A DNA stretch of 64,000 bases from Afifellaceae bacterium (GCA_028284625.1 JANQRH010000025.1:1-64000); one strand, 5' to 3'. Positions 37,951 through 57,151 are shown, counted from the first letter of the stretch. Notes: generated from the letters alone by a model not told the origin. Made by a program: numbers and translations.

Positions 37951-39218
37951 CCGAAATGCGTTGCGCCCTGGCGATCCTGCCGCAGGCTGCGGGCGACCCT
38001 AAGCGACTGCTCAAATCACTTGCAGCGGCGAAGGCCGTTGGCCTGGGCGATCTCGGCGATGTCGAGCCGCTTGAGTTGGCGCAGGACGGTTCGGTGCCCG
38101 AAGTGCTTCGCGCCGCGGCCGATCAGGCATCGGCCGGAGGATTTGACTGGCTCCTGGCTGTGGGGGCAGCGGAGACATTGGCGCCTGACATCTTCGTGAA
38201 GACAGCGCCGGCGCTCCGTCTGCACGACGCAATCTGGGGCGCTGCAGCGATTGCATCGGATAAATCAACGCTACCCAAGGTCGAGCGCATCACGCGGCTT
38301 GCAGCGCAAGATTTGCCGACTTTCTTTCACGCAGCGCTCAGATGGTGGATCGGCCCCACGCATTTTGTGCGCCCGGCGGTTGCCGTGGAGGCGACCCGGC
38401 GGTCAGCCAGCTATGCCGACTACCTCTATGCAATGTGGAAGAGCCATCGCTGCTACAAGACCGCGCAAGCGCTCACGCTGTTTCAAAGTGCCGTGCCGCC
38501 GGTGGCGGAGAGCGATCGCGAGCGCTTGATCGACATCTTGGAGGCGGAGCCGGCCTTCATGCCGATCGGCTTTGGCGGCGAGGTTTTTCATCTGCCCTAT
38601 ACCGGGCTCAATCCCGTTATCGAGCGGGAGCAGATGCGCGGATTGTTCTTCGAGCACGAGGAGTTGGTGTTTCTTGCCGAACGGCTGCCGCGCGGCATGC
38701 AGATTCTCGATGTCGGTGCAAATACCGGTAATCACACGGTTTTCTTCGCCGGACCGATGGAGGCGGAGCGCGTCATCCCGATCGAGCCGCTGCCGCGCGC
38801 GGCCACGGCGATCCGCGCCACCGTCGCAAAGAACGGCCTCGCCAATGTCGACATGTCGCATCTGGGCAAGGCGGTCGGCGCCGGCGAGGGCACCCTGCGC
38901 CCCATTCACTCAAAGACCGCCGGCCTCGGCGCAACACATTTCATCGCCGATCCGGCCGGCGACGTACCACTTGTCACGCTCGATGCGTTAGAGACGGGCC
39001 GGGTGGGCTTTCTCAAGCTTGACGTTGAAGGGATGGAGATGGACGTGCTTGCCGGCGCGGCAGCGCTCATCGCTGCTCACCGTCCCGTGCTCTACGTTGA
39101 GGTTGTAGACACGGCAATCGCTCGTTTCATGGCCTGGGTCGATGCTCATGATTATCGCATCGAAAAGCTCTTTCCCGACAAGACCCATTGCAATTACCTT
39201 CTCACTCCGTCGGATTGA
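37947..39218 (+). CDS. FkbM family methyltransferase with an N-terminal extension
   Basis: 423 residues. The C-terminal half (from about 245) has SAM-binding ILDVGANTGNHTVFFAG, a Glu in IPIEPLP, and the FkbM pattern VTLDALETGRVGFLKLDVEG and HRPVLYVEV. FkbM enzymes O-methylate sugars or polyketides. The first about 230 residues are not recognised: an Ala-rich lead, then a part with PTFFHAALRWWIGP that could be a second, glycan-related domain. It overlaps the lyase gene by four bases, so the two are coupled. The GTG at 37947 is chosen over an ATG at 37956. Confidence 0.82.
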   Translation: MTEMRCALAILPQAAGDPKRLLKSLAAAKAVGLGDLGDVEPLELAQDGSVPEVLRAAADQASAGGFDWLLAVGAAETLAPDIFVKTAPALRLHDAIWGAAAIASDKSTLPKVERITRLAAQDLPTFFHAALRWWIGPTHFVRPAVAVEATRRSASYADYLYAMWKSHRCYKTAQALTLFQSAVPPVAESDRERLIDILEAEPAFMPIGFGGEVFHLPYTGLNPVIEREQMRGLFFEHEELVFLAERLPRGMQILDVGANTGNHTVFFAGPMEAERVIPIEPLPRAATAIRATVAKNGLANVDMSHLGKAVGAGEGTLRPIHSKTAGLGATHFIADPAGDVPLVTLDALETGRVGFLKLDVEGMEMDVLAGAAALIAAHRPVLYVEVVDTAIARFMAWVDAHDYRIEKLFPDKTHCNYLLTPSD

Positions 39219-39235
39219 CCAAGAAAGGTTCAGGG

Positions 39236-41158
39236 ATGGCGCTTCGAACAGCACTTAGCCTGGCAACGCTCCTTGTCTTTGGAGCTGGGGGGATTGGAAG
39301 CGGGCTGGCTGAGACTGCTGTCCCGGATTTGGTGGAGCCGCCATTTCTTGAAGCGGCGGTGGCGTCGGGCGATTTGCCGCCTGTGGCGGAGCGCGTTCCG
39401 GAGCGGCCCATGGTGGTCAGCTACGGGGGCGGGGACAAAGAGCCCGGCCAGTATGGCGGCACGCTGCGCCTGATCGGCGGCAGCGCCAAAGACACCCGGC
39501 TCATGGTGATCTACGGCTATGCGCGGCTGGTGACCTACACGCCCGACTACGCGATCGTTCCCGATATCGCTGAAAGCGTGGAGGTGGAGGACGACCGCGT
39601 CTTCACCATCCGTCTCAGGCCCGGACACAAATGGTCGGACGGAGCGCCGTTCACGTCGGAGGATTTCCGTTTCTATTGGGAGGACATGGGCAACGACGCG
39701 GAGGTTTCACGCTTCGGGCCGCCGAAGGAGCTCTTGGTCGACGGCGAGCGGCCGACCGTCGAGTATCCCGATGAGCTGACGATCCGGTACAGCTGGTCGA
39801 AACCCAATCCGTTCTTCCTTCCGGCACTCGCGGCCGCACAGCCGGTCGAGATCTTCAGGCCGTCGCATTATCTGAAGCAGTTCCACGCGCGATACGCCGG
39901 CCAGGAGACCGTCGACAAGATGGCGGAGGAGGCGGGTCAGCGGAACTGGGTCTCGCACCTTTATCGCAAGGACCGGTCCTATCGGAACGACAATCTGGAC
40001 TATCCGACGCTTCAGCCCTGGGTGCTGAGGACGCAGCCGCCGTCCGACCGCTATCACTTCGAGCGCAATCCCTATTATCACCGCGTCGACGAGGCCGGCC
40101 ATCAGCTTCCCTATATCGATGCCGTGGCGCTGGCGATTGCCAGTTCGGACCTGATCCCGGCCAAGGTGGCGAGCGGCGAATCCGATCTGCAGGGACGGTA
40201 TCTGGCGTTCTCCAACTTCACCTTCCTGAAGGAGGCGGAGGAGCGCAGCGGCTATAAGGTGCGCCGCTGGCTGGCGACCAAGGGCGCCCGCATGGCGCTC
40301 TATCCCAATCTCAACGTCGCTGATCCGGTATTCAAGGATCTGTTCCGAGAGGCCGATTTCCGCCGCGCGCTGTCGGTGGCCATCGATCGCGACGACATCA
40401 ACAACACCATCTTCTATGGTGTCGCGAGCCCGTCCAACAACACGGTTGTGGCGGAGTCGCCGCTCTTCCGCGACGAGTACCGTACGCAATGGACTGAGTT
40501 CGATCCGGAACTGGCGGACGAGTTGCTGGACGGCCTGGGGCTAGCGGAGCGCGACGACGACGGCATTCGCCTGCTGCCGAACGGAGAGCCGCTGCAGATC
40601 GTCGTGGAGACCGCCGGTGAATCGACCGAGCAGATCGATGTGTTGCAGCTCGTCAAGGAACACTGGGCGGATATCGGCGTGTCGCTGTTCATCAAGCCGT
40701 CGCAGCGCGAGGTCTTCTACAACCGCATCGCGGCCGGCGAGACGCAAATCGCCGTGTGGGTGGGACTTGAGAACGCGCTGCTGAGGGCCTCGATGAGTCC
40801 GGCGGAATTCGCTCCCCAAACGCCGGATCAGTTCCAATGGCCGGCCTGGGGGCTGTGGGCGCAGACCAGCGGCCAGATGGGCGAAGAGCCTGACCTGGGA
40901 GCCGTCCTCAAGCTGATTGAGCTGAACGGCAAATGGAGCGAGGCCACGACTGAGGAGGCGCGCGAGGAGGCTTGGCACGAATTGCTTGAGTTATGGACCG
41001 ATCAGGTCTTCACGATCGGCATCGTCTCCGGCGTGGAGCAGCTCGTCGTGGTCAGCGACCGGTTGCGCAACGTGCCGGAGCGCGGCACCTACAATTACAA
41101 TCCCGGCGCCTATTTCGGCATGTATCGGCCCGATACGTTCTGGTTCGCCGGACAATAG
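39236..41158 (+). CDS. Peptide/opine-type ABC transporter substrate-binding protein (large)
   Basis: 640 residues of SBP family 5, larger than oppA at 18418 (529). Signal peptide (LATLLVFGAGGIGSGLAE), then an unusual lead (PDLVEPPFLEAAVASGD) ending YGGTLRLIGGS, RLRPGHKWSDGAPFTSEDF and RRALSVAIDRDDI. The long lead is shared by a group of alphaproteobacterial binding proteins. The ATG at 39236 follows AAAGGTTCAGGG. It starts an operon with two permeases; no ATPase follows on this strand. Confidence 0.9.
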   Translation: MALRTALSLATLLVFGAGGIGSGLAETAVPDLVEPPFLEAAVASGDLPPVAERVPERPMVVSYGGGDKEPGQYGGTLRLIGGSAKDTRLMVIYGYARLVTYTPDYAIVPDIAESVEVEDDRVFTIRLRPGHKWSDGAPFTSEDFRFYWEDMGNDAEVSRFGPPKELLVDGERPTVEYPDELTIRYSWSKPNPFFLPALAAAQPVEIFRPSHYLKQFHARYAGQETVDKMAEEAGQRNWVSHLYRKDRSYRNDNLDYPTLQPWVLRTQPPSDRYHFERNPYYHRVDEAGHQLPYIDAVALAIASSDLIPAKVASGESDLQGRYLAFSNFTFLKEAEERSGYKVRRWLATKGARMALYPNLNVADPVFKDLFREADFRRALSVAIDRDDINNTIFYGVASPSNNTVVAESPLFRDEYRTQWTEFDPELADELLDGLGLAERDDDGIRLLPNGEPLQIVVETAGESTEQIDVLQLVKEHWADIGVSLFIKPSQREVFYNRIAAGETQIAVWVGLENALLRASMSPAEFAPQTPDQFQWPAWGLWAQTSGQMGEEPDLGAVLKLIELNGKWSEATTEEAREEAWHELLELWTDQVFTIGIVSGVEQLVVVSDRLRNVPERGTYNYNPGAYFGMYRPDTFWFAGQ

Positions 41159-41170
41159 GCGGTCTGATCC

Positions 41171-42169
41171 GTGCTCAGCTTTCTGGTTCGCCGCCTGATC
41201 ACGATGGTATGGACGCTGCTCGGTATCAGCGTCCTGGTCTTCGTCATCATCCAGCTGCCGCCGGGCGATTATCTGACCACCTATATCGCCGAGATCCAGG
41301 CCTCCGGCGAGCGCGTCGCGGAAGAGAAGATCGCGTTCCTGCGCGAGCAATACGGCCTCGACCTCCCGATGTGGCAGCAATATCTGGTGTGGGTCACCGG
41401 GCTGCTGCAGGGCGATCTCGGCTTTTCCTTCGAGTACAACCAGCCCGTCGCCGACGTGATCGGCGACCGCATGTTCCTGACGCTAGTGCTGAACTTCTTC
41501 ACGGTGCTCTTCATCTACGTCGTGTCGTTTCCCATCGGCGTATACGCCGCGACGCATCAATACAGCGCCGGCGACCACACGCTTTCCTTCATCGGGTTCA
41601 TCGGATTGGCGACGCCCAACTTTCTGCTCGCGCTGATCCTGCTCTATCTCGCGAACGTCTGGTTCGGCACGTCCATCGGCGGGCTGATGGATCCCGAATA
41701 CATCGACCAGCCTTGGAGCGTCGGCAAAGCGTTGTCGGTGCTGGAGCATATGTGGATACCGGTGGTCGTTATCGGAACATCCGGCACCGCCGGAATGATC
41801 CGACGGCTCCGCGCCAACTTGCTCGACGAGCTGCAGAAGCAATATGTCACTACCGCACGCGCCAAAGGCGCGCCGGAAGGGCGCGTGCTTAGGCGCTATC
41901 CGCTGCGCATGGCGCTGAACCCCTTCATCGCCGATATCGGCAGTCTGCTGCCGCAGATCGTCTCCGGCTCGGTGATCGTGTCCGCGGTCATGTCGTTGCC
42001 GACGACCGGCCCGATGCTTCTATCGTCGCTGCAAAGTCAGGACATGTACCTCGCCGGTTCGTTCCTGATGTTCCTCGCGGTTCTGACCGTCGTCGGCATG
42101 TTGGTCTCCGACATTCTGCTCGCCGTGCTTGATCCGCGCATCCGGCTCGCCGGGGGAGGGGCCCGGTGA
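41171..42169 (+). CDS. Dipeptide/oligopeptide-type ABC permease (DppB-like)
   Basis: 332 residues. The start MLSFLVRRLITMVWTLLGIS is typical of DppB/OppB, with six helices and the coupling loop DELQKQYVTTARAKGAPEG. A 60-residue segment between helices 1 and 2 faces the periplasm (EIQASGERVAEEKIAFLREQ). It overlaps the next gene by four bases (GTGA). Confidence 0.92.
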   Translation: MLSFLVRRLITMVWTLLGISVLVFVIIQLPPGDYLTTYIAEIQASGERVAEEKIAFLREQYGLDLPMWQQYLVWVTGLLQGDLGFSFEYNQPVADVIGDRMFLTLVLNFFTVLFIYVVSFPIGVYAATHQYSAGDHTLSFIGFIGLATPNFLLALILLYLANVWFGTSIGGLMDPEYIDQPWSVGKALSVLEHMWIPVVVIGTSGTAGMIRRLRANLLDELQKQYVTTARAKGAPEGRVLRRYPLRMALNPFIADIGSLLPQIVSGSVIVSAVMSLPTTGPMLLSSLQSQDMYLAGSFLMFLAVLTVVGMLVSDILLAVLDPRIRLAGGGAR

Positions 42170-43335
42170 GCGATAAGGTGAGCGCCAAGCTGGACCATTA
42201 CGTTTCGCAGGAGACGTTCGACCCCGAAGCCACCATGGCCGCCGGGTCGGCGCCGTCGGAAAAGTATCTCAAGGCGTCGCAGACCCAGATCATCTGGTGG
42301 CGTTTCCTGCGTCATCGCTTGGCCGTCGTCTCGCTCGTCGTGCTCGGCCTTTGCTATTTCTCGGTGCTCATCTCCGAGGTCATCGCGCCTTACGGCTTGC
42401 TCACACGCTCCTCGTCCCACGTGTTCGCGCCGCCGCAGCGCGTGCACTTCATCCACGAAGGTCGCTTCATCGGCCCGTTCGTCTATCCGCTCAATTTCGA
42501 GCTCGACTTGGAAACGCTGAAGCGGGAATACACGCCCGACACGTCCGATCCGCAACCTATTCGCTTCTTCTGCTTCGGCGAGGAATACGATTTCTGGGGC
42601 TTGTTTGACGGCAGCTTCCACCTGGTGTGCCCACCGAAAAACGGCACATTGTTCCTGCTCGGCACCGACAAGCTGGGCCGCGACATGTTCTCCCGGCTGA
42701 TATACGGCGCGCGAATATCGCTCACCATCGGTCTGATCGGGGTGACGCTGAGCTACGCGATCGGCATCGTCGTGGGTGGCATTGCCGGCTATTTCGGCGG
42801 CATTTTCGATTCCATCGTCCAGCGCATCACCGAGGTCCTTCGCTCCATTCCTGAGCTGCCGTTGTGGATGGCTCTATCTGCGGCGCTGCCCGTCACATGG
42901 GACCCACGCCTGATCTATCTCGGGATCACCGTCATTCTGGCGCTGCTTGATTGGCCATCGATTGCGCGCGCAGTGCGCTCAAAGCTTTTCGCATTGCGCG
43001 AGGAGGATTACGTCGCCGCAGCGGAGATGATGGGCGCCAAGCCATCGCGCATCATCGCAAAGCACCTCCTGCCGAACTTCACGTCGCATCTGATCGCCTC
43101 CGCCTCGCTTACCATCCCGTCCATGATCCTGGCGGAGACGGCGCTCTCCTTCCTCGGCCTCGGCCTCAGGCCGCCGATCACGTCGTGGGGCGTGCTCCTC
43201 AACGAGGCGCAGAACATTGAGGCGGTGGCGCTTTATCCGTGGCTGATGGCGCCGATGGTGCCGGTGATGGTGATCGTGCTCGCCTTCTCATTCCTTGGCG
43301 ACGGTCTGCGCGACGCGATCGACCCGCACGATTAG
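42166..43335 (+). CDS. Dipeptide/oligopeptide-type ABC permease (DppC-like) with insert
   Basis: 389 residues, longer than usual. A cytoplasmic lead of about 40 residues precedes helix 1; a soluble insert of about 110 residues after it (VFAPPQRVHFIHEGRF to SFHLVCPPKNG) precedes the conserved GTDKLGRDMFSRLIYGA. The coupling loop is AAEMMGAKPSRIIAKHLLPN. The gene ends this operon. The same kind of insert occurs in the OppC at 20960. Confidence 0.92.
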   Translation: MSDKVSAKLDHYVSQETFDPEATMAAGSAPSEKYLKASQTQIIWWRFLRHRLAVVSLVVLGLCYFSVLISEVIAPYGLLTRSSSHVFAPPQRVHFIHEGRFIGPFVYPLNFELDLETLKREYTPDTSDPQPIRFFCFGEEYDFWGLFDGSFHLVCPPKNGTLFLLGTDKLGRDMFSRLIYGARISLTIGLIGVTLSYAIGIVVGGIAGYFGGIFDSIVQRITEVLRSIPELPLWMALSAALPVTWDPRLIYLGITVILALLDWPSIARAVRSKLFALREEDYVAAAEMMGAKPSRIIAKHLLPNFTSHLIASASLTIPSMILAETALSFLGLGLRPPITSWGVLLNEAQNIEAVALYPWLMAPMVPVMVIVLAFSFLGDGLRDAIDPHD

Positions 43336-43397: not shown

Positions 43398-44246
43398 TCA
43401 TGCCTTCAACAGCCACAGGCTCGATTCCTTCGCGCCGGTTTTGAGCTCAAGCTCGCCGGCGACGCTGACGGCGACCGCTTCGGCCATGCGCGTCGCTGCA
43501 TAATGGCTTGACCATAGAAGGCGATAGCCGCTGCCTTGGATGAGGCCGGCGACGCCGAGCTGCTCGTTATAGCCGCGCCATTCCCACTCGGCCGGATAGT
43601 CGTCGGGCAGGAAGATGTCGTGGATATGCACCATCACGCCGGAGGGCAGGCACGGCAGCACATGGTTGAAGAGTAGGTCGACATCCGTGCCCGGCATGAG
43701 GATGTGACTGGAATCGATAAACAGGATGTCGCCTTCGCTGAGCGAATCGAACGGCTGAAGCCCCGCATCCTGCACGATGCCGCGGATCACCGTAGCACCC
43801 GTGCCCTCGATGTCGGCGCGTGGCGCGGGGTCGATTGAAGTGACGGTCGTGGATAGCTCGCCGTCGCGCACGGCGCGGGTCAGGAAGCGCGTTGAGTGGC
43901 CGGAGCCAACCTCGATGATGCGAGCCGGCTTTGCCTGACGCACAAGCACATAGGCCGCGAGCGCGTCGAGGCGCGGAAACCAGTCCTGGTTCCAGCGAGG
44001 TTCCGGCGGCGGGGTTCCTCCGATCCGGTGAAGGTCGTCGGCAAAGGGTGCCGCCGCATCGATCAGCGCCGTGAAGGTCGGCTCGGCCGCAGCAAAGAGC
44101 GCCTCAAGCGCGCCATACGACATGCGCTCGGCATGGGCAGGTACCTGGTCGGCGTAGCGATAGGGGATAAAGAAGCCGCGCTTCTTCGGGCCGAGCAGTG
44201 TCGAAAGCCCGAGCTTCAGCCGCCGCGCCCGGCCGCGCATCAGCAT
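43398..44246 (-). CDS. Class I SAM-dependent methyltransferase
   Basis: 282 residues with a Rossmann methyltransferase core: ARIIEVGSGHSTRFLTRAV, TSIDPAPRADIEG, and a region DILFIDSSHILMPGTDVDLL, as in the Methyltransf_24 group, with a His-rich later motif (VMVHIHDIFLPDD). A basic lead of about 25 residues (RGRARRLKLGLS) could touch membrane or RNA. It is the last of four genes running from 48869 and starts 60 bases after the cyclase. Its acceptor is unknown. Confidence 0.82.
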   Translation of the reverse strand: MLMRGRARRLKLGLSTLLGPKKRGFFIPYRYADQVPAHAERMSYGALEALFAAAEPTFTALIDAAAPFADDLHRIGGTPPPEPRWNQDWFPRLDALAAYVLVRQAKPARIIEVGSGHSTRFLTRAVRDGELSTTVTSIDPAPRADIEGTGATVIRGIVQDAGLQPFDSLSEGDILFIDSSHILMPGTDVDLLFNHVLPCLPSGVMVHIHDIFLPDDYPAEWEWRGYNEQLGVAGLIQGSGYRLLWSSHYAATRMAEAVAVSVAGELELKTGAKESSLWLLKA

Positions 44247-44306
44247 ACTCTCCGGTTGCGGGTCAGGCGTGCGTGAAGCGCATCGTGACGAAGGCGGCGC
44301 ACGGTA

Positions 44307-45530
44307 TCACGCGGCCTCGCGCGCCTTTTCCTCAAGGTAGCCGAAAATCTCCTGCTCCGCGCCGACCCCCTCCAAGGGATGCATGCCCATGGAACGCCAG
44401 CGAGAGGGTTCGATCGCCGCCACTTCCTTTGTCGCAAGCACTCGTGCCCCCAGCGCCTTGGTGAGCTTCTCGATCCGCGCCACCTCAATCACGGTCGGCC
44501 CGATCGCCGAGAACGAGAGCCGCTCCGGCACGCCGATATTGCCGTACATCACTTCGCCGAAGTTCAGCCCGATGCCGTAATTGAAGGTCGCGAGGCCGGC
44601 GGCGCGCCGCTCCTCCATGGTCCGATCGGCGGCGTTGAGCGAATCCTGCAATGCGCCCATGACCCGGCGCGTAACCTCACCACGCTCGTTGTCGTCGTCG
44701 ATCGGAAAGATGCCCAGAACCGCGTCGCCGATGAACTCAAGCACTTCGCCGCCCGTATCGATGACCGGGCGCGCCGCGCATTCGAAGTAGACGTTGAGCA
44801 GCTCCAGAAAGTCATCCGGCGGCATCGTCTCCGCCAGATGCGTGGAGCTCCTGAGGTCGGAGAACCACACAAGCGCGCGGATGCGGTCGCCATCGCCAAG
44901 CCGGATGTTGCCGCGGAACACTTTTCGTCCCGTCAGCTTGCCGAGATAGGCTTCCGTGATGTTGCGGGCCACACGGTCCTGCAGCACGGTTTTTGTCGCG
45001 ATCGCCAGGCGCTGTTGGATACGCTGCAGCCCAGCCAGGTCCTCCTCGGAAAAACCGCCCGGCTGATCGGACGCCCACGACACCAGGATGCCGCGGCGGG
45101 CTTGCGACTCATGCTGCGTGCTTCCGAAGAGCGCGGTCGCCATCAAGATGTAGTCGGTATAGCCCTCCTCGGCGAACTCTTCGAGGATCGGGTAATCGAT
45201 CATCTTGTTGGGCCCGGTCAGACGCCGCCGCATCACCGGGATGTCGTTCTCGATAAGCGCCTGCATCGGGCTGTTCTGCCAGGCATCCGATACGACATCT
45301 TGATGCTCGAACTGGCTGAGCTGAGCCGGCTTGCCACGCCGCCAGATCACGTTCTCCGCTTGGAAGAGCGGATGCAGCGTCGGCCACATCATCGATCCGC
45401 GGCCGACCGGCACGCCGATGGCGGAAAGCCGCAGGCACAGCCCCTCGAAGAGCTCCACGACATCGGGCTCTCCGAGCGCCTGCTCGATGAGCCAGTCACG
45501 CACCTGCTGAAGAAGGCTGGATTCGGCCAT
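44307..45530 (-). CDS. Class III nucleotide cyclase domain protein with a changed active site
   Basis: 407 residues. The first about 200 have no recognised domain (a small-molecule sensor fold is possible). The cyclase domain follows: metal Asp in VWFSDLRSST (D225), second Asp in EFIGDAVLGIF (D269), GLNFGEVMYGNIG, then SAIGPTVIEVARIE. In this group of rhizobial cyclases the last motif normally reads GPxVNEVARIE; Asn stabilises the transition state and is Ile 348 here (codon at 44487-44489, ATT; AAT would be Asn). The metal sites and Arg 352 remain. It could be inactive, a weak cyclase, or a nucleotide sensor. It lies 120 bases after the CNBD gene. Confidence 0.85.
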   Translation of the reverse strand: MAESSLLQQVRDWLIEQALGEPDVVELFEGLCLRLSAIGVPVGRGSMMWPTLHPLFQAENVIWRRGKPAQLSQFEHQDVVSDAWQNSPMQALIENDIPVMRRRLTGPNKMIDYPILEEFAEEGYTDYILMATALFGSTQHESQARRGILVSWASDQPGGFSEEDLAGLQRIQQRLAIATKTVLQDRVARNITEAYLGKLTGRKVFRGNIRLGDGDRIRALVWFSDLRSSTHLAETMPPDDFLELLNVYFECAARPVIDTGGEVLEFIGDAVLGIFPIDDDNERGEVTRRVMGALQDSLNAADRTMEERRAAGLATFNYGIGLNFGEVMYGNIGVPERLSFSAIGPTVIEVARIEKLTKALGARVLATKEVAAIEPSRWRSMGMHPLEGVGAEQEIFGYLEEKAREAA

Positions 45531-45650
45531 GGCTACGTGCTCAGTTTGTGTGCCCCGTCAAATTGTGCGCGCAGGATGCGCGTTCAACCCCTTCGGCCGC
45601 CTTAACGGGCGAGGGGGCCTGCCGGATCGACCCGCGCCCACGCCCCGCGT

Positions 45651-46106
45651 TCACGCAGACTGGCGTTGCGCCTCGATGAGGTCGGCTGTCGTTCGCGTCA
45701 GGCGCTCCGCCAGAAGGCGTGTCATCTCCACCGCCATCTCCGGGAATTGCTTCATCAGCTGGAAGAACGGCTCCTTGCGGATGCGCAAGGCCGTCAGCTC
45801 ACCCTTCGCGGTGACCGTCGCGGTGCGCGGCGTGTCGCACAAGATGGCGATCTCACCGAAAAAATCGCCGTCATGCAGCTCGGCCACTGTGATGTCGCCG
45901 GTATCCGCAGGAACCGAGACATCAGCGTCACCCTCGATGATGACATAGGCCGCATCGCCGATGTCGTCCTTGCGCACGAGCACTTGGCCCGGCTCGTACG
46001 TCACGACATCGGAGGTGTAGGCCAGCAGCTTCAGCTTGCCCGGCTCGATCCCCGCAAACAGGGGAACCCGGCGAAGGAGTTCGACTTCGTTGCTCAGCAG
46101 ACTCAC
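45651..46106 (-). CDS. Cyclic nucleotide-binding domain protein
   Basis: 151 residues, a single Crp-type cyclic-nucleotide-binding domain without a helix-turn-helix. The phosphate-binding cassette is FFGEIAILCDTPRTATV, with Glu and Arg for ribose and phosphate contact; a C-terminal helix (LLAERLTRTTADLIEAQ) follows. It probably senses cAMP or cGMP and acts on a partner protein. It sits between the ABC-like gene (48 bases) and the cyclase. Confidence 0.92.
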   Translation of the reverse strand: MSLLSNEVELLRRVPLFAGIEPGKLKLLAYTSDVVTYEPGQVLVRKDDIGDAAYVIIEGDADVSVPADTGDITVAELHDGDFFGEIAILCDTPRTATVTAKGELTALRIRKEPFFQLMKQFPEMAVEMTRLLAERLTRTTADLIEAQRQSA

Positions 46107-46154
46107 GTGACCAGACCCCCATTCAGCTGGCCGGCAATCATCGGGCGTGTGGCC

Positions 46155-48869
46155 CTATTTGGCCGGCTCAAGTGCGCGACCCTCCTCTGTCCCGCTTCTC
46201 TCCTCCGACTTGGCAATCCGACCATTCTCAAAGGTCAGCACCCTGTCGAACCATTGACCCGACCCGGGATGGCCGAGAACCCAAAAGACCGTCATGCCCG
46301 GGTCGCCGAGGCCGCGCGCGAAGTCCAAGACGCGCGTCACGGTGGCATCCTGTGCGTTCGCGTCAAGGGCCGTCAGCGCCCGGTTGACCACAAGCAGGTC
46401 AGGCCGCTTGATCAGCGCGCGCGCCAGCGAGACCTTCTGCTGCTGCGCCAGCGACAGGCGCTTTGCGCCGCTGCCCACGTCGAAACTCAGGCCAAGCTCG
46501 ATAATCGCGTCGGTCAGACCAAGTGAATCCATGGTCTCGCGCAGAAGCGCATTCACACGCTCAACCGCTTCCGCATAGGTGTCGACGATACGGCCGAAGA
46601 GCACGTTGTCCTGAACACTGGCGGCGGAATTGAGCGATCCGGGCTGGTAGAACACGATGGCGCCGGACAGATCGTCCGGCAGGTTGTCACGGAAAGCCTG
46701 CCGCGCTGCGACGATCGCCGCCTGCAGTTCGTCGTCGAGCATGCCGTGGCGATGGCGCGGCTCGATATAGCCGTAGGCGAGGCGGAGAAGCGCACGCCGA
46801 TCCGATTCCTCCACTTCCGACAGCTCGCCGGCCGAAGCGCGCCGCACGATCGCGCGGTAATCGTCGATCTCATCCGGCGACATGAGGTCCATGCGCTCCA
46901 GAAGCGGATTGTCCGGGGCAAGGTCGCCGAAGAGATCGATCAGCGTCTCCGCAACGTTGAGGCCCATATTGACGAGCTTCTCTTCAAGCCCGGTATCGGT
47001 AACGACCTTCGCCAGATACTGGTCTTCCGTGTTCTCACCATCGATGGCGTCCGGGTCCGACACGCCGAAGATCAAATTCTCCTTCACCGACGCGTTGACG
47101 ACGTATCGTTCCGGATCGAACATCTCGACATATTGTTCGCCGCGGTTTTTCACCAGACGTTCGCGAAACGCGTCGCGCGCCGCCAGCACGCGGCTTTCCA
47201 TCTCGCCGAGCGCTTCTTCCGGCATCTTGCTGCGCAGGCCGAGGCGATAGACGTCGTTTTCAAGGTCCACCAGCACCAGGACTTCGCGCAGGCGCACCAG
47301 CAGATCCTCCGGCCCTTCGGCGCCGGCGGCGGCATAGTCGATCCAATCGTCGTCGATGTTGGTCTCGGTGTTGCCGGAGGCGCGGGCCTCGGTGAGCCAT
47401 TGCCGGGTCTCGCGCGACTCCTCCGTCTGGCTGCGAAGCGGCGCGTGACGCAGGCCGTAGATCAGCGCGTTCATCAGCGAGGATTGCGGCAGATAGGTAT
47501 TTGCCTCCGCGTAGCCGATGCGGCGGCCGGTGAAGGAATCGGGAAGCCCCTCGATGGCACTTCCGTCGATGAGGATGCGGCCGCTATCCGGTACCGACAG
47601 CTTTGCGAGCGCTTCCGCCAGGTATTCGCCGCCCGCGCCGACCGGACCGACGGCGGCTACGGCGTCGCCTGGGGCGAGTTTCAGCGATGTTGGCTCAAGC
47701 AACGTTGCGCCGGAATCGTCGCGGATCGCGAGGCCGCTCGCCGACACCTCTCGATCGATGCGCGGCGGCGTATTTGTGTCGAGCTTCTGCAGCTCCGGAT
47801 CGAGCACCTTGCCGATGGTGAACTGCTCGACGACCTGCGTGTATTTGACCTGCACGTCGAGCCGCTGCTGGTCCCAGTCGATCAGGTCCTTTAGCGGTGA
47901 GGGGAGTTCCTTATACGCCGCGATGACCGCCACGAGCTGGCCGATATCCAGCCGGCCCGTAATCGCGAAGTAGCCGCCGATCAGATAAAAGATGAACGGC
48001 GTGACCTGGGCCAGCAGGTTGTTGATGAATTTGACCAGGAACTTCCACTGGTAGATGTCGAAGCGGATAAAAAAGATCTTGCCGAGACGATTGGCGATCT
48101 CTGCGCGTTCCCAGTTGGTCGCATCGTTGACCCTGACGCCGATAATCCCTTCCACGATCTCACCGACACGCCCGGCTAGCGCGCGCGCCGTAAGCTGGCG
48201 CTGACGCCCAAGGATCAGAAGCCGCCGACGCAGCCGCGGGATCAGGATCACCTGCACTGCCACGATGGCGCCGGCGACAAGCCCCAGCGTGACGCTTTGC
48301 AGCATGATGAAGACCATCGCCGTGACCGCCTGGCTGAGCAGGAAGGCCGGCTGCACATAGGCGTCGCCAATGAAGCCGCCGAGCGGCTCCACCTCGTCCT
48401 TCACCATGGTGGCGACTTCGGAGGAGCGCATGCGCCGGAACTGCGGCAGCGGGAAGCGCAGAAGCGTGTCGACAAGCTGGTAGCGCATACGCCTCAGCAT
48501 CCGCTCGCCGAGCCGGCCTTTGAACACGGAGATGTAGAGCTTGAAGGCGCCGTTGATGAGGACGAAGCTGAGGAAGAGCGTGCACAGGTAGAAGAGCATC
48601 GCCACGCGTTCCAGCTCGATCCCATCAAAAAGCACGAACTCGTTGCCACCGCCGCCGAGCCAGGCCGGGATGGAAAACGCAATGCGTAGCGCCGTCTCCG
48701 TATCGGTGGGGCTGGAGAAGCCTTCGCCCTGAATCGGGCCGTTGATGATCTGCTTAGGCAGGTCCAGCGACAGGAAGTAGAACGGCAGCGACGCCACGAC
48801 CACGAGCAGCAGCCAGATCTGGTCGCGCTTCGAGAACCTCCAGGTGTAGCGGAAGATACTTTGGTCCAT
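46155..48869 (-). CDS. ABC-exporter-like membrane protein with degenerate, expanded nucleotide-binding domain
   Basis: 904 residues. About 1-350 is an exporter-type transmembrane domain: six helices, with LGERMLRRMRYQLVDTLLRFP in the coupling region. From about 375 an ABC domain starts (LLEPTSLKLAPGDAVAAVG), but the P-loop is GPVGAGGE (408-415): no Lys or Ser/Thr. Signature is LSLAQ (805-809) instead of LSGGQ, and Walker B LLVVNRALTALD (825-836) has Asn-Arg in place of Asp-Glu; the switch His in LGHP stays. About 400 residues separate P-loop and signature (about 100 normally), with three look-alike segments: SSLMNALIYG, ASVKENLIFG and ASVQDNVLFG. ATP hydrolysis is unlikely. It is first in the operon. 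Confidence 0.88.
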   Translation of the reverse strand: MDQSIFRYTWRFSKRDQIWLLLVVVASLPFYFLSLDLPKQIINGPIQGEGFSSPTDTETALRIAFSIPAWLGGGGNEFVLFDGIELERVAMLFYLCTLFLSFVLINGAFKLYISVFKGRLGERMLRRMRYQLVDTLLRFPLPQFRRMRSSEVATMVKDEVEPLGGFIGDAYVQPAFLLSQAVTAMVFIMLQSVTLGLVAGAIVAVQVILIPRLRRRLLILGRQRQLTARALAGRVGEIVEGIIGVRVNDATNWERAEIANRLGKIFFIRFDIYQWKFLVKFINNLLAQVTPFIFYLIGGYFAITGRLDIGQLVAVIAAYKELPSPLKDLIDWDQQRLDVQVKYTQVVEQFTIGKVLDPELQKLDTNTPPRIDREVSASGLAIRDDSGATLLEPTSLKLAPGDAVAAVGPVGAGGEYLAEALAKLSVPDSGRILIDGSAIEGLPDSFTGRRIGYAEANTYLPQSSLMNALIYGLRHAPLRSQTEESRETRQWLTEARASGNTETNIDDDWIDYAAAGAEGPEDLLVRLREVLVLVDLENDVYRLGLRSKMPEEALGEMESRVLAARDAFRERLVKNRGEQYVEMFDPERYVVNASVKENLIFGVSDPDAIDGENTEDQYLAKVVTDTGLEEKLVNMGLNVAETLIDLFGDLAPDNPLLERMDLMSPDEIDDYRAIVRRASAGELSEVEESDRRALLRLAYGYIEPRHRHGMLDDELQAAIVAARQAFRDNLPDDLSGAIVFYQPGSLNSAASVQDNVLFGRIVDTYAEAVERVNALLRETMDSLGLTDAIIELGLSFDVGSGAKRLSLAQQQKVSLARALIKRPDLLVVNRALTALDANAQDATVTRVLDFARGLGDPGMTVFWVLGHPGSGQWFDRVLTFENGRIAKSEERSGTEEGRALEPAK

Positions 48870-48962: not shown

Positions 48963-50891
48963 CTAACGAGCGATCCCGGGCGTAAACGCTGCTTCTCCCA
49001 TGGCCGGCGCGGCCGTCGCCGGCTGCTTCGCCGGCTCCGGCAGCCGCTCGGCACGCACGAAATGCCCGTTGCCTGCGTCCAGCATGGGCGGGTCTCCGTC
49101 CGGCCCGCAGCAAAACGGCGCTGGCCAGGCCAGCGGATCGGATTGGCGCGTCTCGCCAATGATTTGGAAGTCCAGCGGGCGATCGGGATCGGGGAAGGGG
49201 ACGGCCGACATCAGCGCTTTCGTATAGGGGTGCATCGGGTTGCGGAACAGCTCGTCGCGCGGCGCCAGCTCCACCAGGCGGCCGGCGCACATCACCGCGA
49301 TGCGGTCGGCGATGTAATTGATCACCGCGAGATTGTGCGAGATAAAGAGGTAGGTCAGGCCAATCTCTTTCTGCAGGTCCTTCAAGAGATTGAGAATCTG
49401 CGCCTGGATGGAGACATCGAGCGCTGAGACAGGCTCATCGCAGATGACGAGCTCCGGCTGCAGCGCCAGCGCCCGCGCAATGCCAATGCGTTGCCGTTGT
49501 CCGCCGGAAAAGCTGTGCGGGTAGCGGTTGAGATGTTCTCCCCCGAGCCCGACCATCTCCAGGAGCCGCACGGCGGCCGCGCGTCTTGTCGCCTCCGTGC
49601 CGATGTTATGGATCAGGAACGGTTCGGCAAGAATGCTGCCGATGGTCATGCGCGGATTGAGCGACGAGAAGGGGTCCTGGAAGATATATTGAATCTTGCG
49701 GCGGATGGGGTGCATCTCCTGCCGATCCAGGTCGAAGAGGCGGATCGGCCGACCGCCGTCATGGAACAGCGCTTCGCCCTCGTCGACCTCCACGGCGCGT
49801 GTGATGGCCTTGCTGACTGTCGTCTTGCCGGAGCCTGATTCCCCGACGAGCCCCAGGCACTCGCCACGGTCGATGGAGAAGCTGACGTCGGAGAGCGCCA
49901 GCACGCTCGCCTCCGGCCCGCTCGACAACCATTTGAGGTGCTTCCGCAAGCCGAAGCGTTTGGTGAGGTTCTTCACTTCAAGGAGCGTGCCGCCGCTTCT
50001 GTCGGTGAGCGCCGCCTCGCCGAAATCCGGCACCGAGGTCTTGATCTCGCGGATCGGCTTCAGCCGTTCCCCGGGCTTCATCTCAAAATGCGGCACCGCT
50101 TTGAGCAGCGCCTTGAGGTAGGGATGCTGCGGATTGCCGAAAATATCGTCGAGCGCGCCGGCTTCAACGACCTTGCCGTGATGCGCGACAACGACCTCCT
50201 CAGCCATGTTGGCCACCACGCCGAGATCATGCGTGATGAGCAGAACCGCCATGCCGAGCTCGTCCTGCACGTCGCGGATCAGCTTCAGGATCTGCGCCTG
50301 CACGGTTACGTCGAGCGCGGTTGTCGGCTCATCGGCGATCAGAAGCGCCGGGCGGCAGATCAGCGCCATGGCGATCATGGCGCGCTGGCGCAGACCACCG
50401 GAGAGCTCGAAGGGATAGGAATCGACCGTCTCAGACGGGCGAGGGAACTCCACAAGCCGCAGCATCTCGATCGTGCGCTCGCGCTTCTCCTCTGCGCTCA
50501 CCTTATGATGCACTGACAGCGCCTCGCCGATCTGGTCCCCGATCGTGTGGAGTGGCGAGAACGAGGTCATCGGCTCCTGGAAGATCATGCCGATGCGATT
50601 GCCGCGGATATGCATGAACTCCTTGGATTTCGGCTTGATCTTGGCGACGTCGCGCACGCCCTCCGACGGGTCGTTGAACAGGATCTCGCCTGCCGTGATC
50701 CGTGCGGTGCGCGGCAGAATGCCCATGGTCGCCTGCGCCGAAACCGACTTGCCGGACCCCGATTCTCCGACCAGCGCCACGGTGCTCCCCGGCCGCACGC
50801 GCATCGACAGCCCGTCCACGGCCTGGACGCGCCCGGCGAGCGTGCGGAACTCAACCGACAGGTCATTGATCTTGAGGAGGTCGTCGCTCAC
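48963..50891 (-). CDS. Fused dipeptide/oligopeptide transporter ATPase (OppD-OppF type)
   Basis: 642 residues, two intact ABC domains. Domain 1: [29 protein letters not shown]. Domain 2 (from about 330): [29 protein letters not shown]. Both have the peptide-transporter C-terminal extensions ([11 protein letters not shown] and [11 protein letters not shown]). A Pro/Ala-rich tail follows. Most likely it powers the permeases at 41171-43335, which lack their own ATPase. The GTG at 50891 is chosen, with GAAGAAG upstream; an ATG at 50930 is possible. Confidence 0.92.
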
Positions 50892-50976
50892 GGGGCATTC
50901 TTCTTCATGGTCGGCTCGGCATGGGGCCATGGAAATCTTTGCGTGGCAATGACCAAGGGGTGACGGTCGCGTCGAT

Positions 50977-52143
50977 TCATGGCGCAACGGCCCCGCCGAT
51001 GCGAACATTCTGCGTTGCCAGATCATAGATGAACTTGGCCGATTGCGCCGCCCCGGCAAGGTTCACGCCGGCGGGAGGCGGCGGTGAAATCGCGGTATGG
51101 TTGATCGCATCTGCCAGCGTGGCAGCGGTCAGTTCGGCTTCCGGGACAAACGTCATGAGGCCCTTCTCCGCCAGGATTTCCGCGCGCAATCGCTGCTCCG
51201 TCTCGCCCTTTGCCTCATATGGCACGACCACCGCGCGGACGCCTGACGCCAAAATGTCCATCGTCGTGTTGTAACCGGCCTGCGAAATGGAAAGGGTGGC
51301 GACGGAAAGCCGCGCAGTAAAGTCGGGGCGAAAGCGCTCCACGATGGTGCGTTCTTCCGCTATGGCAGCGACGCGCTGGTATTCAGCCTCGCTGAGATTT
51401 GGCCCGGTGAGAAAGCGCCATGTGTGGTCGGCCATGGCGGTCGCTGGCCGCGCCTCCATCGCTGCGAAAAGGAGCGGTGCGCCGACCGCTCCGCCACCGG
51501 CCGACACGATCACCTCGTCGCGCCCGGCACTTGTTGTCCCATCTACGCGCGGCGCAGTGACATAGCCCGTGTAACGGATCAGATCGGCGATACGATCGGC
51601 GGCCGGGAAGGTCTGGCCGAACGGAATGAGCTTCGGATCGCCATGCACCAGCACCGTGTCGAAATAGCGCCGCAGCGTCTCAACCGTCTCCTCCGTTCGC
51701 TCCGCCTTTCTGGACACCAGGATGTCACGCACGGAGCAAAGGACCTGCGGCCGTTGCGGCTCGACGTGGATCATCTCCAGAAGCGGCAGCAGCTCAAAGC
51801 GGAACTGTCGCCGCCCAAAGGGAAAGAGCTCAATCAGAACAACGGCGGGGTCGGCGCGACGATAAAGGTCGAGAAGGGCGGCGCGCCGCGCCTCGATCCA
51901 CGCATCGTCGACGGCCGCGCCGTTGGCGTCGCGAAGCGTGGAGAAATCCTCGCCGGCGATCGTTGCAGGCGGCAAGTGAACGACATTCACCCCGTCAAAC
52001 GGCACCTCCGGAAACGGCGCGCCTCCGAACGCAACGGTCACGTCGATGCCGGTCTTAGCCATCGCCAGCGCAAGCGTCTCCGCGCGGCGGAGATGCCCGA
52101 CGCCCAAGAGGTGCTGGACGTAGAAGAGAACGCCGCCGCTCAT
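50977..52143 (-). CDS. GT-B glycosyltransferase (COG4671-like)
   Basis: 388 residues. The N-terminus FYVQHLLGVGHLRRAETLA is the acceptor-side motif of a MurG-like group also seen at 54385; the donor half has SQAGYNTTMDILASGVRAVVV and KGETEQRLRAEILAE. Last of five minus-strand genes; its start overlaps the phosphatase gene by four bases. The sugar and acceptor are unknown. Confidence 0.85.
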   Translation of the reverse strand: MSGGVLFYVQHLLGVGHLRRAETLALAMAKTGIDVTVAFGGAPFPEVPFDGVNVVHLPPATIAGEDFSTLRDANGAAVDDAWIEARRAALLDLYRRADPAVVLIELFPFGRRQFRFELLPLLEMIHVEPQRPQVLCSVRDILVSRKAERTEETVETLRRYFDTVLVHGDPKLIPFGQTFPAADRIADLIRYTGYVTAPRVDGTTSAGRDEVIVSAGGGAVGAPLLFAAMEARPATAMADHTWRFLTGPNLSEAEYQRVAAIAEERTIVERFRPDFTARLSVATLSISQAGYNTTMDILASGVRAVVVPYEAKGETEQRLRAEILAEKGLMTFVPEAELTAATLADAINHTAISPPPPAGVNLAGAAQSAKFIYDLATQNVRIGGAVAP

Positions 52144-54384: not shown

Positions 54385-55617
54385 CTACGCGCCGGCGCTA
54401 CTCACGACAGCGAAGCGTGGTGCTTCGGCGTCTCCGGGTGCGGCCGTGCCGAGATATTGGTCGACGAGGCCGTTGATGACGGAGAGCCCGTCGAGCAGGC
54501 CGGGGATGTGCACTTTCGATGGCCGCCGCCGATGCGGCAGCGCACGCAGCGCCTCCGCCATCTGGTGCGGGCTTGTCGTGTCGTCGGGCAACAGCACCGA
54601 AACAAGCCCGAGATCGGCCGCCCGCTTGGCGCGGATATATTGCTCCGCCCGCGGCGTCGTGCGGGGCAGGATGAGCGCGCGTTTGTCCATGGAGAGGATT
54701 TCGCAGAACGTATTGTAGCCGCCCATCGCAACGACGGCGGCGGCGCGCTGCATCAGCGCCTCCATGTTGGCCTCAAACGCGATCGCCTCCACATGCTTCA
54801 GCCGCGCCACGCGCTCCATGAAGCCGGTCTGCTGGTTTGTGCCCATGAACGGCCCCATCACGATCTTCGCCGGCATGTTGAGCGTCGGGTCGAACTCGTA
54901 GGCCCTGAGCACCCAATCGACCAGCATGGCGCCATCGCCGCCGCCGCCGGTCGTAACCAGGAAGAAGGGCTCCTCGATCCCATGCGGCGGCGGGTAAAGG
55001 CCGGAGGGCGTCTTGCCGCGCCTGAGATATCCGGTGAAACGCGTCTTCTGCCGAACCGCCTCCGAGACGGCGATCCCGTCAAGCGGGTCGTGCACCTCTT
55101 CAAGTCCGTAGATCCAGATGTGATCGTAAAGCTGCTCCAGCGACGGCAGCGAATGTTTGCGCTCCCATTCCGCCGCCAGCCGCGATGGCTCGTCCATCAC
55201 ATCCCTGAGGCCAAGCACGAGGAGCTTGTTCTTGTCCTTGAGGTAGCGAAGCGTGTCTTCGACTTCGCCCCTCAGGCCAAGCGGCTCCTTGTCGACCAGA
55301 AAGATGTCGGGCTCAAAGACCCGCGCCGTCTCCAGAATGATCGATGACCGGATCGTCATCAAGTCTTCGATGGAGATGCCGGGGCTGTGAGGCTGATAGT
55401 TCTCGTTGGCCAACTTCACCACGCCGGGCACGCGGATGAAGTCAACGTTTGGCGAAAAGCTAAACGCGCCGACGATTGGCGAGCCGGCGATCATGAGGAT
55501 CGAAAGGTCCTCGCGATAGGCCACCAATGACTGCGCAATGGCGCGGCAGCGCCTCAGATGCCCGAGCCCGAAAGAATCGTGGCTGTAGATCAGCATCCGC
55601 GGCTGACGATTGCTCAA
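54385..55617 (-). CDS. GT-B glycosyltransferase (COG4671-like), first gene of the glycan operon
   Basis: 410 residues. The N-terminus MLIYSHDSFGLGHLRRCRA (after a short lead) is the twin of the gene at 50977; the donor half has AMGGYNTFCEILSMDKRALI and PRTTPRAEQYIRAKRA. A TTG start at 55617 is preferred over the ATG at 55596, because GAGGAG lies seven bases before it and the lead SNRQPR precedes the first strand. It starts the five-gene operon; a 170-base gap divides it from the divergent cyclase gene. Confidence 0.88.
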   Translation of the reverse strand: MSNRQPRMLIYSHDSFGLGHLRRCRAIAQSLVAYREDLSILMIAGSPIVGAFSFSPNVDFIRVPGVVKLANENYQPHSPGISIEDLMTIRSSIILETARVFEPDIFLVDKEPLGLRGEVEDTLRYLKDKNKLLVLGLRDVMDEPSRLAAEWERKHSLPSLEQLYDHIWIYGLEEVHDPLDGIAVSEAVRQKTRFTGYLRRGKTPSGLYPPPHGIEEPFFLVTTGGGGDGAMLVDWVLRAYEFDPTLNMPAKIVMGPFMGTNQQTGFMERVARLKHVEAIAFEANMEALMQRAAAVVAMGGYNTFCEILSMDKRALILPRTTPRAEQYIRAKRAADLGLVSVLLPDDTTSPHQMAEALRALPHRRRPSKVHIPGLLDGLSVINGLVDQYLGTAAPGDAEAPRFAVVSSAGA

Positions 55618-55789
55618 TGTCGCTCTCCTCGATTGGCAATCTGCCCCTTCGGCGGCGGAGCATCGGCATTTTTCGGCGCGGCGCAACCCACTCCGCGTCT
55701 CCTCGCGGCACTGTGCGAACGCGCGAGGAGGATTAGCTGGTCCCGGTCCTGCGCGCACCTTAATTTGCCGGGCACCAGTCACCTTCAGG

Positions 55790-57151
55790 ATGGCGACCAT
55801 TATGGCGATTCTCTCCAGCCTTGCTTTCTGGCGACCAAATTCCGGTGCGGCCGAGCCGCTATTGCCGCGCGTCCAGGCGCTGATCAGCCGGCAGGAATTG
55901 GAGAGCGAGCGCCTGATCGGCTGGGCGCAGCTCGGCGTCGTCGTCTTCTTCGGTCTTCTATGGGCCGTGGCGCCGCGGCCGGACGACGCGACATTGTTTC
56001 AGCCGGTGCCGATCGCGCTGTCGTTCTATCTGGTGTTCACGACCATCCGGCTGGTGCTGAGTTATGTCAGCGTACTGCCCGGCTGGTTGCTCTTTATTTC
56101 CATGGTACTCGACGTCGGCCTGCTGCTTGGCCTCATATGGACGTTTCACATTCAATATGGGCAGACCGCCGCGTTCTATCTGAAGATCCCGACCTTCGCT
56201 TACATCTTCGTCTTCATCGCATTACGTGCGCTGCGCTTCGACGCGCGCTTCGTGCTCGCGACGGGTTTCTTGGCGGCGTTCGGCTGGCTCGGCATGGTCA
56301 TCTACGCCGTCAACACCAGCGGCATGGACGCCATCACCCGCAGCTTCGTCGACTATCTCAGCTCCAACTCCATTCTGATCGGCGCGGAGATCGACAAGAT
56401 CGTCGCCATCCTCGTCGTTACCGCCATTCTGGCGCTTGCCATTCGTCGCGCCGGTCAGGTGCTGGCGAGCTCCATCAAGGAAGAAGTGCGCACGCGCGAC
56501 ATGATCCGCTTCCTGCCGCGCGACGTCGCCGATGTCGTCACCAGCGCGCAGGACATCGTGAAGCCTGGCGACGCGGATGAGCGTGAGGCGGCGGTACTCA
56601 TGCTCGACCTGCGCGGCTTCACGCGCTTCTGCGCCGGCAAGTCGCCGCGTGAGGTCGTCGATCTCCTTGTCAGCTTTCACAAGCGCATCGTGCCGATCGT
56701 CACGGGCTATCGCGGCGTCGTGGACAAATATCTGGGCGATGGCGTCATGGCGACATTCGGCGCCGCCCACGCTTCGCCGACCGCGGCGGCCGACGCACTT
56801 CAAGCGCTAGACGCCATCATCGCAGAGGCGCGCGAGTGGCATGAGACGCTGTCGCAATCGGAATCCGATCCGCCCTTCGTTAACGGCGCCGTCACGGCCG
56901 GGCCGGTCGTGTTCGCAGCGCTCGGTGACGACGAGCGGCTGGAATACACCATCATCGGAGAGGCGGTGAACCTCGCCGCCAAGATCGAGAAGCACAACAA
57001 GACCGAAGGGTCGATGGCACTGGTGCCGCTCGCCGATTACGAGCACGCGGTCGCGCAGGGCTATGAGCCGCAGCGCGATCCGGAGATCGTCAAGGGCCGC
57101 AACGTCGCCGGCGTCGGCGAGCCGATGGACCTGGTCGTCGTGGCCCGCTGA
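55790..57151 (+). CDS. Membrane-bound class III adenylate/guanylate cyclase
   Basis: 453 residues: six helices (30-220), a linking segment SIKEEVRTRDMIRFLPRDVAD that resembles the cyclase-transducing region, and a cyclase domain. Metal Asp residues lie in VLMLDLRGFTRF and KYLGDGVMATF, and IIGEAVNLAAKIE keeps the catalytic Asn but has Lys for the usual Arg, and Glu for the base-reading Asp. It should make cAMP or cGMP at the inner membrane. The start at 55790 is uncertain: ATG at 55802 has AGGA at a better distance. It is divergent from the glycan operon. Confidence 0.88.
   Translation: MATIMAILSSLAFWRPNSGAAEPLLPRVQALISRQELESERLIGWAQLGVVVFFGLLWAVAPRPDDATLFQPVPIALSFYLVFTTIRLVLSYVSVLPGWLLFISMVLDVGLLLGLIWTFHIQYGQTAAFYLKIPTFAYIFVFIALRALRFDARFVLATGFLAAFGWLGMVIYAVNTSGMDAITRSFVDYLSSNSILIGAEIDKIVAILVVTAILALAIRRAGQVLASSIKEEVRTRDMIRFLPRDVADVVTSAQDIVKPGDADEREAAVLMLDLRGFTRFCAGKSPREVVDLLVSFHKRIVPIVTGYRGVVDKYLGDGVMATFGAAHASPTAAADALQALDAIIAEAREWHETLSQSESDPPFVNGAVTAGPVVFAALGDDERLEYTIIGEAVNLAAKIEKHNKTEGSMALVPLADYEHAVAQGYEPQRDPEIVKGRNVAGVGEPMDLVVVAR

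Follow-up and report, generated by a model that had tools for sequence, protein, structure and literature searches.

An ABC exporter-like protein with degenerate ATPase motifs is paired with a cyclic-nucleotide-binding domain protein in alphaproteobacteria

Introduction

ABC exporters are defined by ATP-driven switching. The channel CFTR and the channel regulator SUR, both eukaryotic, still bind and use ATP and carry no cyclic-nucleotide-binding domain (CNBD). In rhizobia, the known receptors for cyclic nucleotide monophosphates (cNMPs) are mostly Crp-type transcription factors. The nearest published case of an ABC exporter combined with a CNBD is HetC of Nostoc PCC 7120, a peptidase-containing exporter whose CNBD is needed in vivo; HetC has a C39 peptidase and an N-terminal, ppGpp-binding CNBD, and both its ATPase (catalytic Glu) and its peptidase residues are required (PMC10986499). 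For Sinorhizobium meliloti, 28 putative cyclases have been counted (PMC10127613).

Here, we analyze an alphaproteobacterial locus in which an ABC exporter-like protein without recognizable ATPase motifs is encoded next to a stand-alone CNBD protein, and we follow this pair through its homologues.

Results

The window, that is, the whole stretch of DNA analyzed, comprises 64,000 nucleotides from an Afifellaceae bacterium (GCA_028284625.1 JANQRH010000025.1:1-64000), and the module occupies positions 43398-48869. Four ORFs were found there on the minus strand, as a preliminary description of the sequence had it, with gaps of ~48, 120, and 60 bp between them (Table 1). Scans for promoters and terminators gave matches at chance level only. 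The flanks include glycosyltransferase genes. Genes for an SBP5-type importer (oppABC and a fused oppDF) are present on both sides of the module, at 39188-43335 (plus strand) and 48963-51059 (minus strand) of the window, and the same importer genes are found beside the pair in many rhizobial loci.

Table 1. Features of the module, in window coordinates.
Feature	Position	Strand	Basis
Pseudo-ABC protein, 904 aa: six-TM exporter fold with degenerate, expanded NBD	46155..48869	-	Pfam, AF2, VIA-align
TMD, residues 1-350, best-conserved part of the pseudo-ABC family	47820..48869	-	identity comparison, AF2 model
Dead Walker A, GPVGAGGE, residues 408-415; Lys and Ser/Thr lost	47625..47648	-	alignment of 156
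Insert of ~315 residues splitting the NBD, in which the Q-loop/first-helix module (helix 1 of the helical subdomain) occurs twice more	46500..47444	-	hhalign
Degenerate signature motif, RLSLAQQQK (LSLAQ, not LSGGQ), residues 804-812	46434..46460	-	alignment
Dead Walker B, LLVVNRALTALD (LLVVNR), residues 825-836; Asp to Asn, catalytic Glu to Arg	46362..46397	-	alignment
CNBD protein, 151 aa, stand-alone cNMP-binding domain	45651..46106	-	PF00027 1.1e-21, sole Pfam match
Phosphate-binding cassette, FGEIAILCDTPRTATV, canonical	45813..45860	-	alignment of 164 CNBDs
Class III nucleotide cyclase, 407 aa, soluble N-terminal region and catalytic domain	44307..45530	-	PF00211 (Guanylate_cyc) 1.5e-5
Cyclase catalytic domain; D-E-D-P-I-R at Me1, selectivity 1, Me2, selectivity 2, Asn, Arg	44415..44870	-	alignment
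SAM methyltransferase, 282 aa, lineage-specific neighbour	43398..44246	-	Pfam Methyltransf_24

The ABC-like protein matches ABC_membrane (PF00664, 5.5e-17) and, in split form, ABC_tran (PF00005, 1.8e-13), which places a six-helix transmembrane domain (TMD) before a nucleotide-binding domain (NBD); these are its only Pfam matches above cut-off, and no C39 peptidase was found in it. Its AlphaFold2 model (pLDDT 91.7, pTM 0.87) aligned in VIA-align with Z scores of 26-28 to ABC exporters and isolated NBDs, and both profile and structural matches link the protein to the MsbA/NdvA-type homodimeric exporters. It thereby meets the fold criterion for an ABC exporter but not the motif criterion of Walker A, Walker B Asp and Glu, and LSGGQ. 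The ABC domain had been described as dead-looking, and every one of these motifs is indeed lost; we refer to the protein as a pseudo-ABC. Comparison of sub-alignments with hhalign relates the three copies of the Q-loop module to one another (copies 2 and 3, probability 99.1, E = 6e-19; copies 1 and 2, 95.3, 2e-8; copies 1 and 3, 93.4, 2e-7).

Only the ABC protein, or else its profile, served as query in the search for homologues; the CNBD was not used. Named genomes contributed 80 loci; in the order, homologues were present in 66 genomes out of 199, and in the class in 132 out of 385; extra regions were fetched as well. With duplicates removed, 156 alphaproteobacterial ABC-like proteins were aligned. 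The canonical Walker A pattern G..G.GK[ST] occurs in none of the 156. At the Walker A Lys position, Ala, Gly, or Arg is usual, the Ser/Thr position holds Glu or Asp in 128 members, and the Walker B Asp position is Asn in 125. Because the Walker A Lys is retained in 18 of the 156, ATP binding without hydrolysis is not excluded. Mean pairwise identity is 59% in the TMD and 41% in the NBD core, the inverse of the pattern in MsbA-type control exporters of the same order (34% and 59%, respectively; n = 30).

Degenerate nucleotide sites are common among heterodimeric ABC exporters (review PMC7756269), and the pseudo-ABC might be the degenerate half of such an exporter, with the competent ATPase half encoded elsewhere and the CNBD regulating an otherwise ordinary pump. 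We consider this quite unlikely, given that Walker A, Walker B, and the signature are all degenerate, that conservation is concentrated in the TMD, and that no ATPase-competent exporter half recurs as a gene cluster in the neighbourhoods, where the recurrent ABC genes are parts of the SBP5-type importer. The degenerate halves of heterodimeric exporters usually retain Walker A, which is a further point against this explanation.

Relatives of ~410 residues that consist of the TMD without an NBD were seen at L155 (5940-7181, minus strand) and L156 (5568-6794, plus strand), the former close to multicopper-oxidase and cupredoxin-like genes.

The CNBD protein of the window has a cNMP_binding match and no helix-turn-helix match, and the criterion for a CRP/FNR regulator is therefore not met. 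It is, as first proposed, a stand-alone domain, and its cassette satisfies the criterion of a ribose-contacting Glu and a phosphate-contacting Arg; binding of cAMP or cGMP is inferred only. The cassette is kept across the family, with the Glu present in 150 and the Arg in 157 of 164 aligned CNBDs, fused ones included.

At 137 of the 156 loci, the CNBD starts less than 300 bp downstream of the ABC-like gene on the same strand (median 49 bp), and at 13 loci the CNBD is fused to the C terminus of the ABC-like protein, which keeps the ABC-CNBD order of the adjacent pairs. Two loci are truncated, and no CNBD was found at four (L122, L146, L153, and L154). The preliminary description had named conserved adjacency as its own check, to be failed if the homologues were mostly found apart; the two are adjacent or fused at 150 of 154 testable loci. 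No CNBD lies within 1.5 kb of the control exporters (0 of 30 loci). These counts, together with the 13 natural fusions, which support physical association, support the earlier suggestion of a regulated membrane complex in place of a transporter with a chance neighbour, in which binding, gating, and output are inferences. In a tree of the TMDs, the fused and adjacent states require at least three changes. L153 and L154 form a very long separate branch in that tree; L122 and L146, which have no CNBD in the available flank, both fall outside it.

L153 and L154 are very divergent relatives, and a cyclase gene lies convergently 11 bp from the end of L154.

Loss of all ATPase motifs might also be read as decay, the ABC-like protein being a relic and its neighbours there by chance. 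Long open frames in 156 homologues, a mean TMD identity of 59%, and the frequency of pairing already refute this, and we give it practically no weight.

Physical pairing of the pseudo-ABC with the CNBD is, at the level of sequence, strongly supported by the fusions. Direct binding between the unfused subunits is inferred, and fusion and adjacency could be a sign of co-regulation only. A model of a fused ABC-CNBD protein (pLDDT 87, pTM 0.75) came without interdomain error or coordinates and is silent on contact between CNBD and NBD.

The cyclase of the window, flagged from the start as altered, keeps both metal-binding Asp residues, as do 67 of 68 aligned cyclase ORFs with this one included. 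It fails the criterion of purine selectivity (Lys-Asp/Thr) and Asn-Arg, having Glu-Pro and Ile-Arg at these positions; Glu thus replaces the selectivity Lys and Ile the transition-state Asn. Because these two residues are missing, the enzyme may be weak, inactive, or directed to another product. Its closest solved relatives are adenylate cyclases. The canonical K, D, N, and R occur in many cyclases from other loci of the family.

Over the 95 loci with at least 5.5 kb of downstream sequence, a class III cyclase lies within 5.5 kb at 45, against an expectation of ~2.6% derived from 273 cyclases in ~117 Mb (25 of the pair-carrying genomes), an over-representation of ~18-fold. These neighbour counts ignore kinship, the loci not being phylogenetically independent, and a binomial figure calculated for the enrichment is no more than indicative. 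In about half of the loci whose flank is long enough, no class III cyclase lies within that distance; the inclusion of a cyclase in the module, as originally proposed, holds as an enrichment and does not extend to every neighbourhood. The cyclase is recruited repeatedly and from different architectures: soluble N-terminal (as in the window), six-TM, TM with ferredoxin, and TPR. In genomes with merely two or three cyclases, one is found at the pair locus (e.g., L159/G071, L157/G052, and L166/G197), and at two rhizobial loci (L099 and L100) a relative of the window cyclase lies divergently upstream of the pair.

The window encodes another class III cyclase at 55610-57151 (plus strand), ~7 kb from the module; it is of the six-TM type, which in Cypionkella and other genomes adjoins the pseudo-ABC/CNBD pair. 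Four loci from Cypionkella and Pseudorhodobacter (L086, L087, L089, and L103) carry on one strand a row of DUF3095, pseudo-ABC, CNBD, MBL hydrolase, six-TM cyclase, and ferredoxin-cyclase genes, with two cyclases in one apparent operon.

The loci without a nearby cyclase would suit an explanation in which the complex is the same, its CNBD senses a ligand other than a 3′,5′-cyclic mononucleotide (e.g., ppGpp), and cyclases accompany the pair only in part; ppGpp binding has been seen in vitro for the HetC CNBD (PMC10986499). The cNMP cassette Glu and Arg are nevertheless retained in >90% of members, and cyclases are strongly over-represented, and we regard a ligand of this kind as unlikely without dismissing it.

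Cyclase, CNBD, and membrane effector also recall the logic of Pycsar, and the module could be an anti-phage signalling system of this type with the pseudo-ABC as effector. In PADLOC, the window cyclase is hit by PycC models (3.4e-18) and the CNBD by models of Pycsar TIR effectors, but these matches may reflect just the general similarity of class III cyclases and CNBDs. The Pycsar criterion of a two-gene cassette in variable defence islands is not met, the synteny with polysaccharide and importer genes recurring in many lineages and families; with 132 of 385 sampled class genomes positive and several different cyclases at the loci, we see only a slight chance that the module serves defence.

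Among the other neighbours, an MBL-fold hydrolase is encoded within 5.5 kb at 64 of the 95 loci. Its best match is RNase Z (4.4e-18), the match to the cyclic-nucleotide nuclease Apyc1 being weak (0.0017); a phosphodiesterase role is a guess, and no close copy of this hydrolase was found in the genome of the window. Genes for DUF3095 proteins lie within the same distance at 18 of the 95 loci; their FGGDGA motif looked cyclase-like by eye but had no profile support (hhalign probability 0.4), and they were left out of the cyclase counts. The methyltransferase, listed with the module in the preliminary description, is probably not a member and was rejected as such, its orthologue being seen only in a sister genome (L037).

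Next to the pair, most rhizobial loci encode glycosyltransferases, a polysaccharide deacetylase, or the SBP5-type importer. In other lineages, for instance Cypionkella, the pair is accompanied by the MBL hydrolase and cyclases without glycosyltransferase genes. A link to polysaccharide is not universal because several lineages that carry the pair have no polysaccharide cluster.

The pair of S. meliloti lies on pSymB (841723-844384 in strain 1021). The RCAM1750 record labels its genes "ABC transporter ATP-binding protein" and "Crp/Fnr family transcriptional regulator," and the Crp/Fnr label on the CNBD homologue looks wrong. Two genes past the CNBD gene lies a LacI-family gene; with SM_b21272 described as a LacI regulator (PMC11387232), counting back would give SMb21269 for the ABC gene and SMb21270 for the CNBD gene, an assignment inferred without annotation. 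Nine genes between smb21252 and smb21271 are required for the PPP surface polysaccharide, which is protective against phazolicin; some genes with a possible part in PPP are reported to be under cAMP control, and insertions in cyaA, an adenylate cyclase gene, become strongly depleted when phazolicin is present (PMC10128002). A cyclase related to that of the window (35% identity) is encoded ~13 kb upstream of the pair in the 1021 record. The location of the pair inside the PPP cluster region suggests a polysaccharide output, with the proviso that the pair has not been shown to be among the nine PPP genes; where the polysaccharide cluster is lacking, the output may be different.

The ABC gene of strain 1021 (L205, ~842.1 kb) differs from that of RCAM1750 (L203) by one base in a C run near codon 133, and its frame is broken; the match in strain 2011 is of intact length.

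Discussion

A dead ATP site throughout the family, a conserved TMD, the pairing and fusions, a conserved cNMP pocket, and the enrichment of cyclases are observed. Our favored interpretation, which we hold to be probable, is that the pseudo-ABC and the CNBD protein form an obligate complex in the membrane, with its conformation driven by cNMP binding where an exporter would use ATP hydrolysis. The core would be a two-subunit assembly of the pseudo-ABC, probably a homodimer with NBDs that are still folded but no longer hydrolyze ATP, and a cNMP-binding subunit that would sit near the NBD end. In many genomes the ligand, whose identity is inferred, would come from a nearby class III cyclase, and the MBL-fold hydrolase, in an equally inferred role, may remove it. 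Binding of cNMP, and not the ATP cycle, would make the TMDs switch state, and this switch could gate a pore, a flippase-like path, or a partner enzyme. The likely output in rhizobia, also an inference, would be production or export of surface polysaccharide.

More tentatively, and with rather less than even confidence, we propose that the family represents cyclic-nucleotide receptors of a new class, in which an ABC exporter fold without hydrolysis is switched by a dedicated cNMP-binding subunit; cNMP would thereby act directly on a membrane gate or transporter, and rhizobial cyclases would be tied to surface polysaccharide without transcription. The open literature yielded no account of an ABC exporter that is ATPase-dead throughout its family and paired with a CNBD; subscription papers were outside the scope of the search, and novelty is not proven.

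If the proposal is correct, a widespread exporter fold has parted with hydrolysis, acquired a near-obligate cNMP sensor, and so come to use a different input. The pairing points to an undescribed route by which cAMP-like signals would act directly on the cell membrane. A membrane receptor would be of particular interest in rhizobia, which have unusually many cyclases yet known receptors mostly of the Crp type. The presence of the pair in the tractable S. meliloti, in a cluster tied to a phazolicin-protective polysaccharide, makes the idea testable genetically.

HetC shares with the pseudo-ABC family the union of ABC exporter and CNBD; the family differs in having no peptidase, a CNBD that is C-terminal or separate, and no catalytic residues. 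With the MsbA/NdvA-type exporters, the pseudo-ABC has in common the six-TM exporter fold and an NBD, but it lacks the Walker A Lys-Ser/Thr, the Walker B Asp-Glu, and LSGGQ, its Q-loop module is triplicated, and the conservation of TMD and NBD is reversed. Pycsar offers the same set of cyclase, CNBD, and membrane effector, and is set apart by its type of effector and by a conserved synteny and breadth in the pseudo-ABC loci that are ill-suited to a defence island. Two further comparisons concern mechanism only. CFTR and SUR show the exporter fold reused for ligand-controlled gating; in their use of ATP and their lack of a CNBD they are unlike the pseudo-ABC. In SthK and MloK1, whose PDB chains are matched by the CNBD of the window, a C-terminal CNBD is coupled to a membrane protein; there the membrane part is a tetrameric K+ channel, whereas that of the pseudo-ABC has the fold of an ABC exporter.
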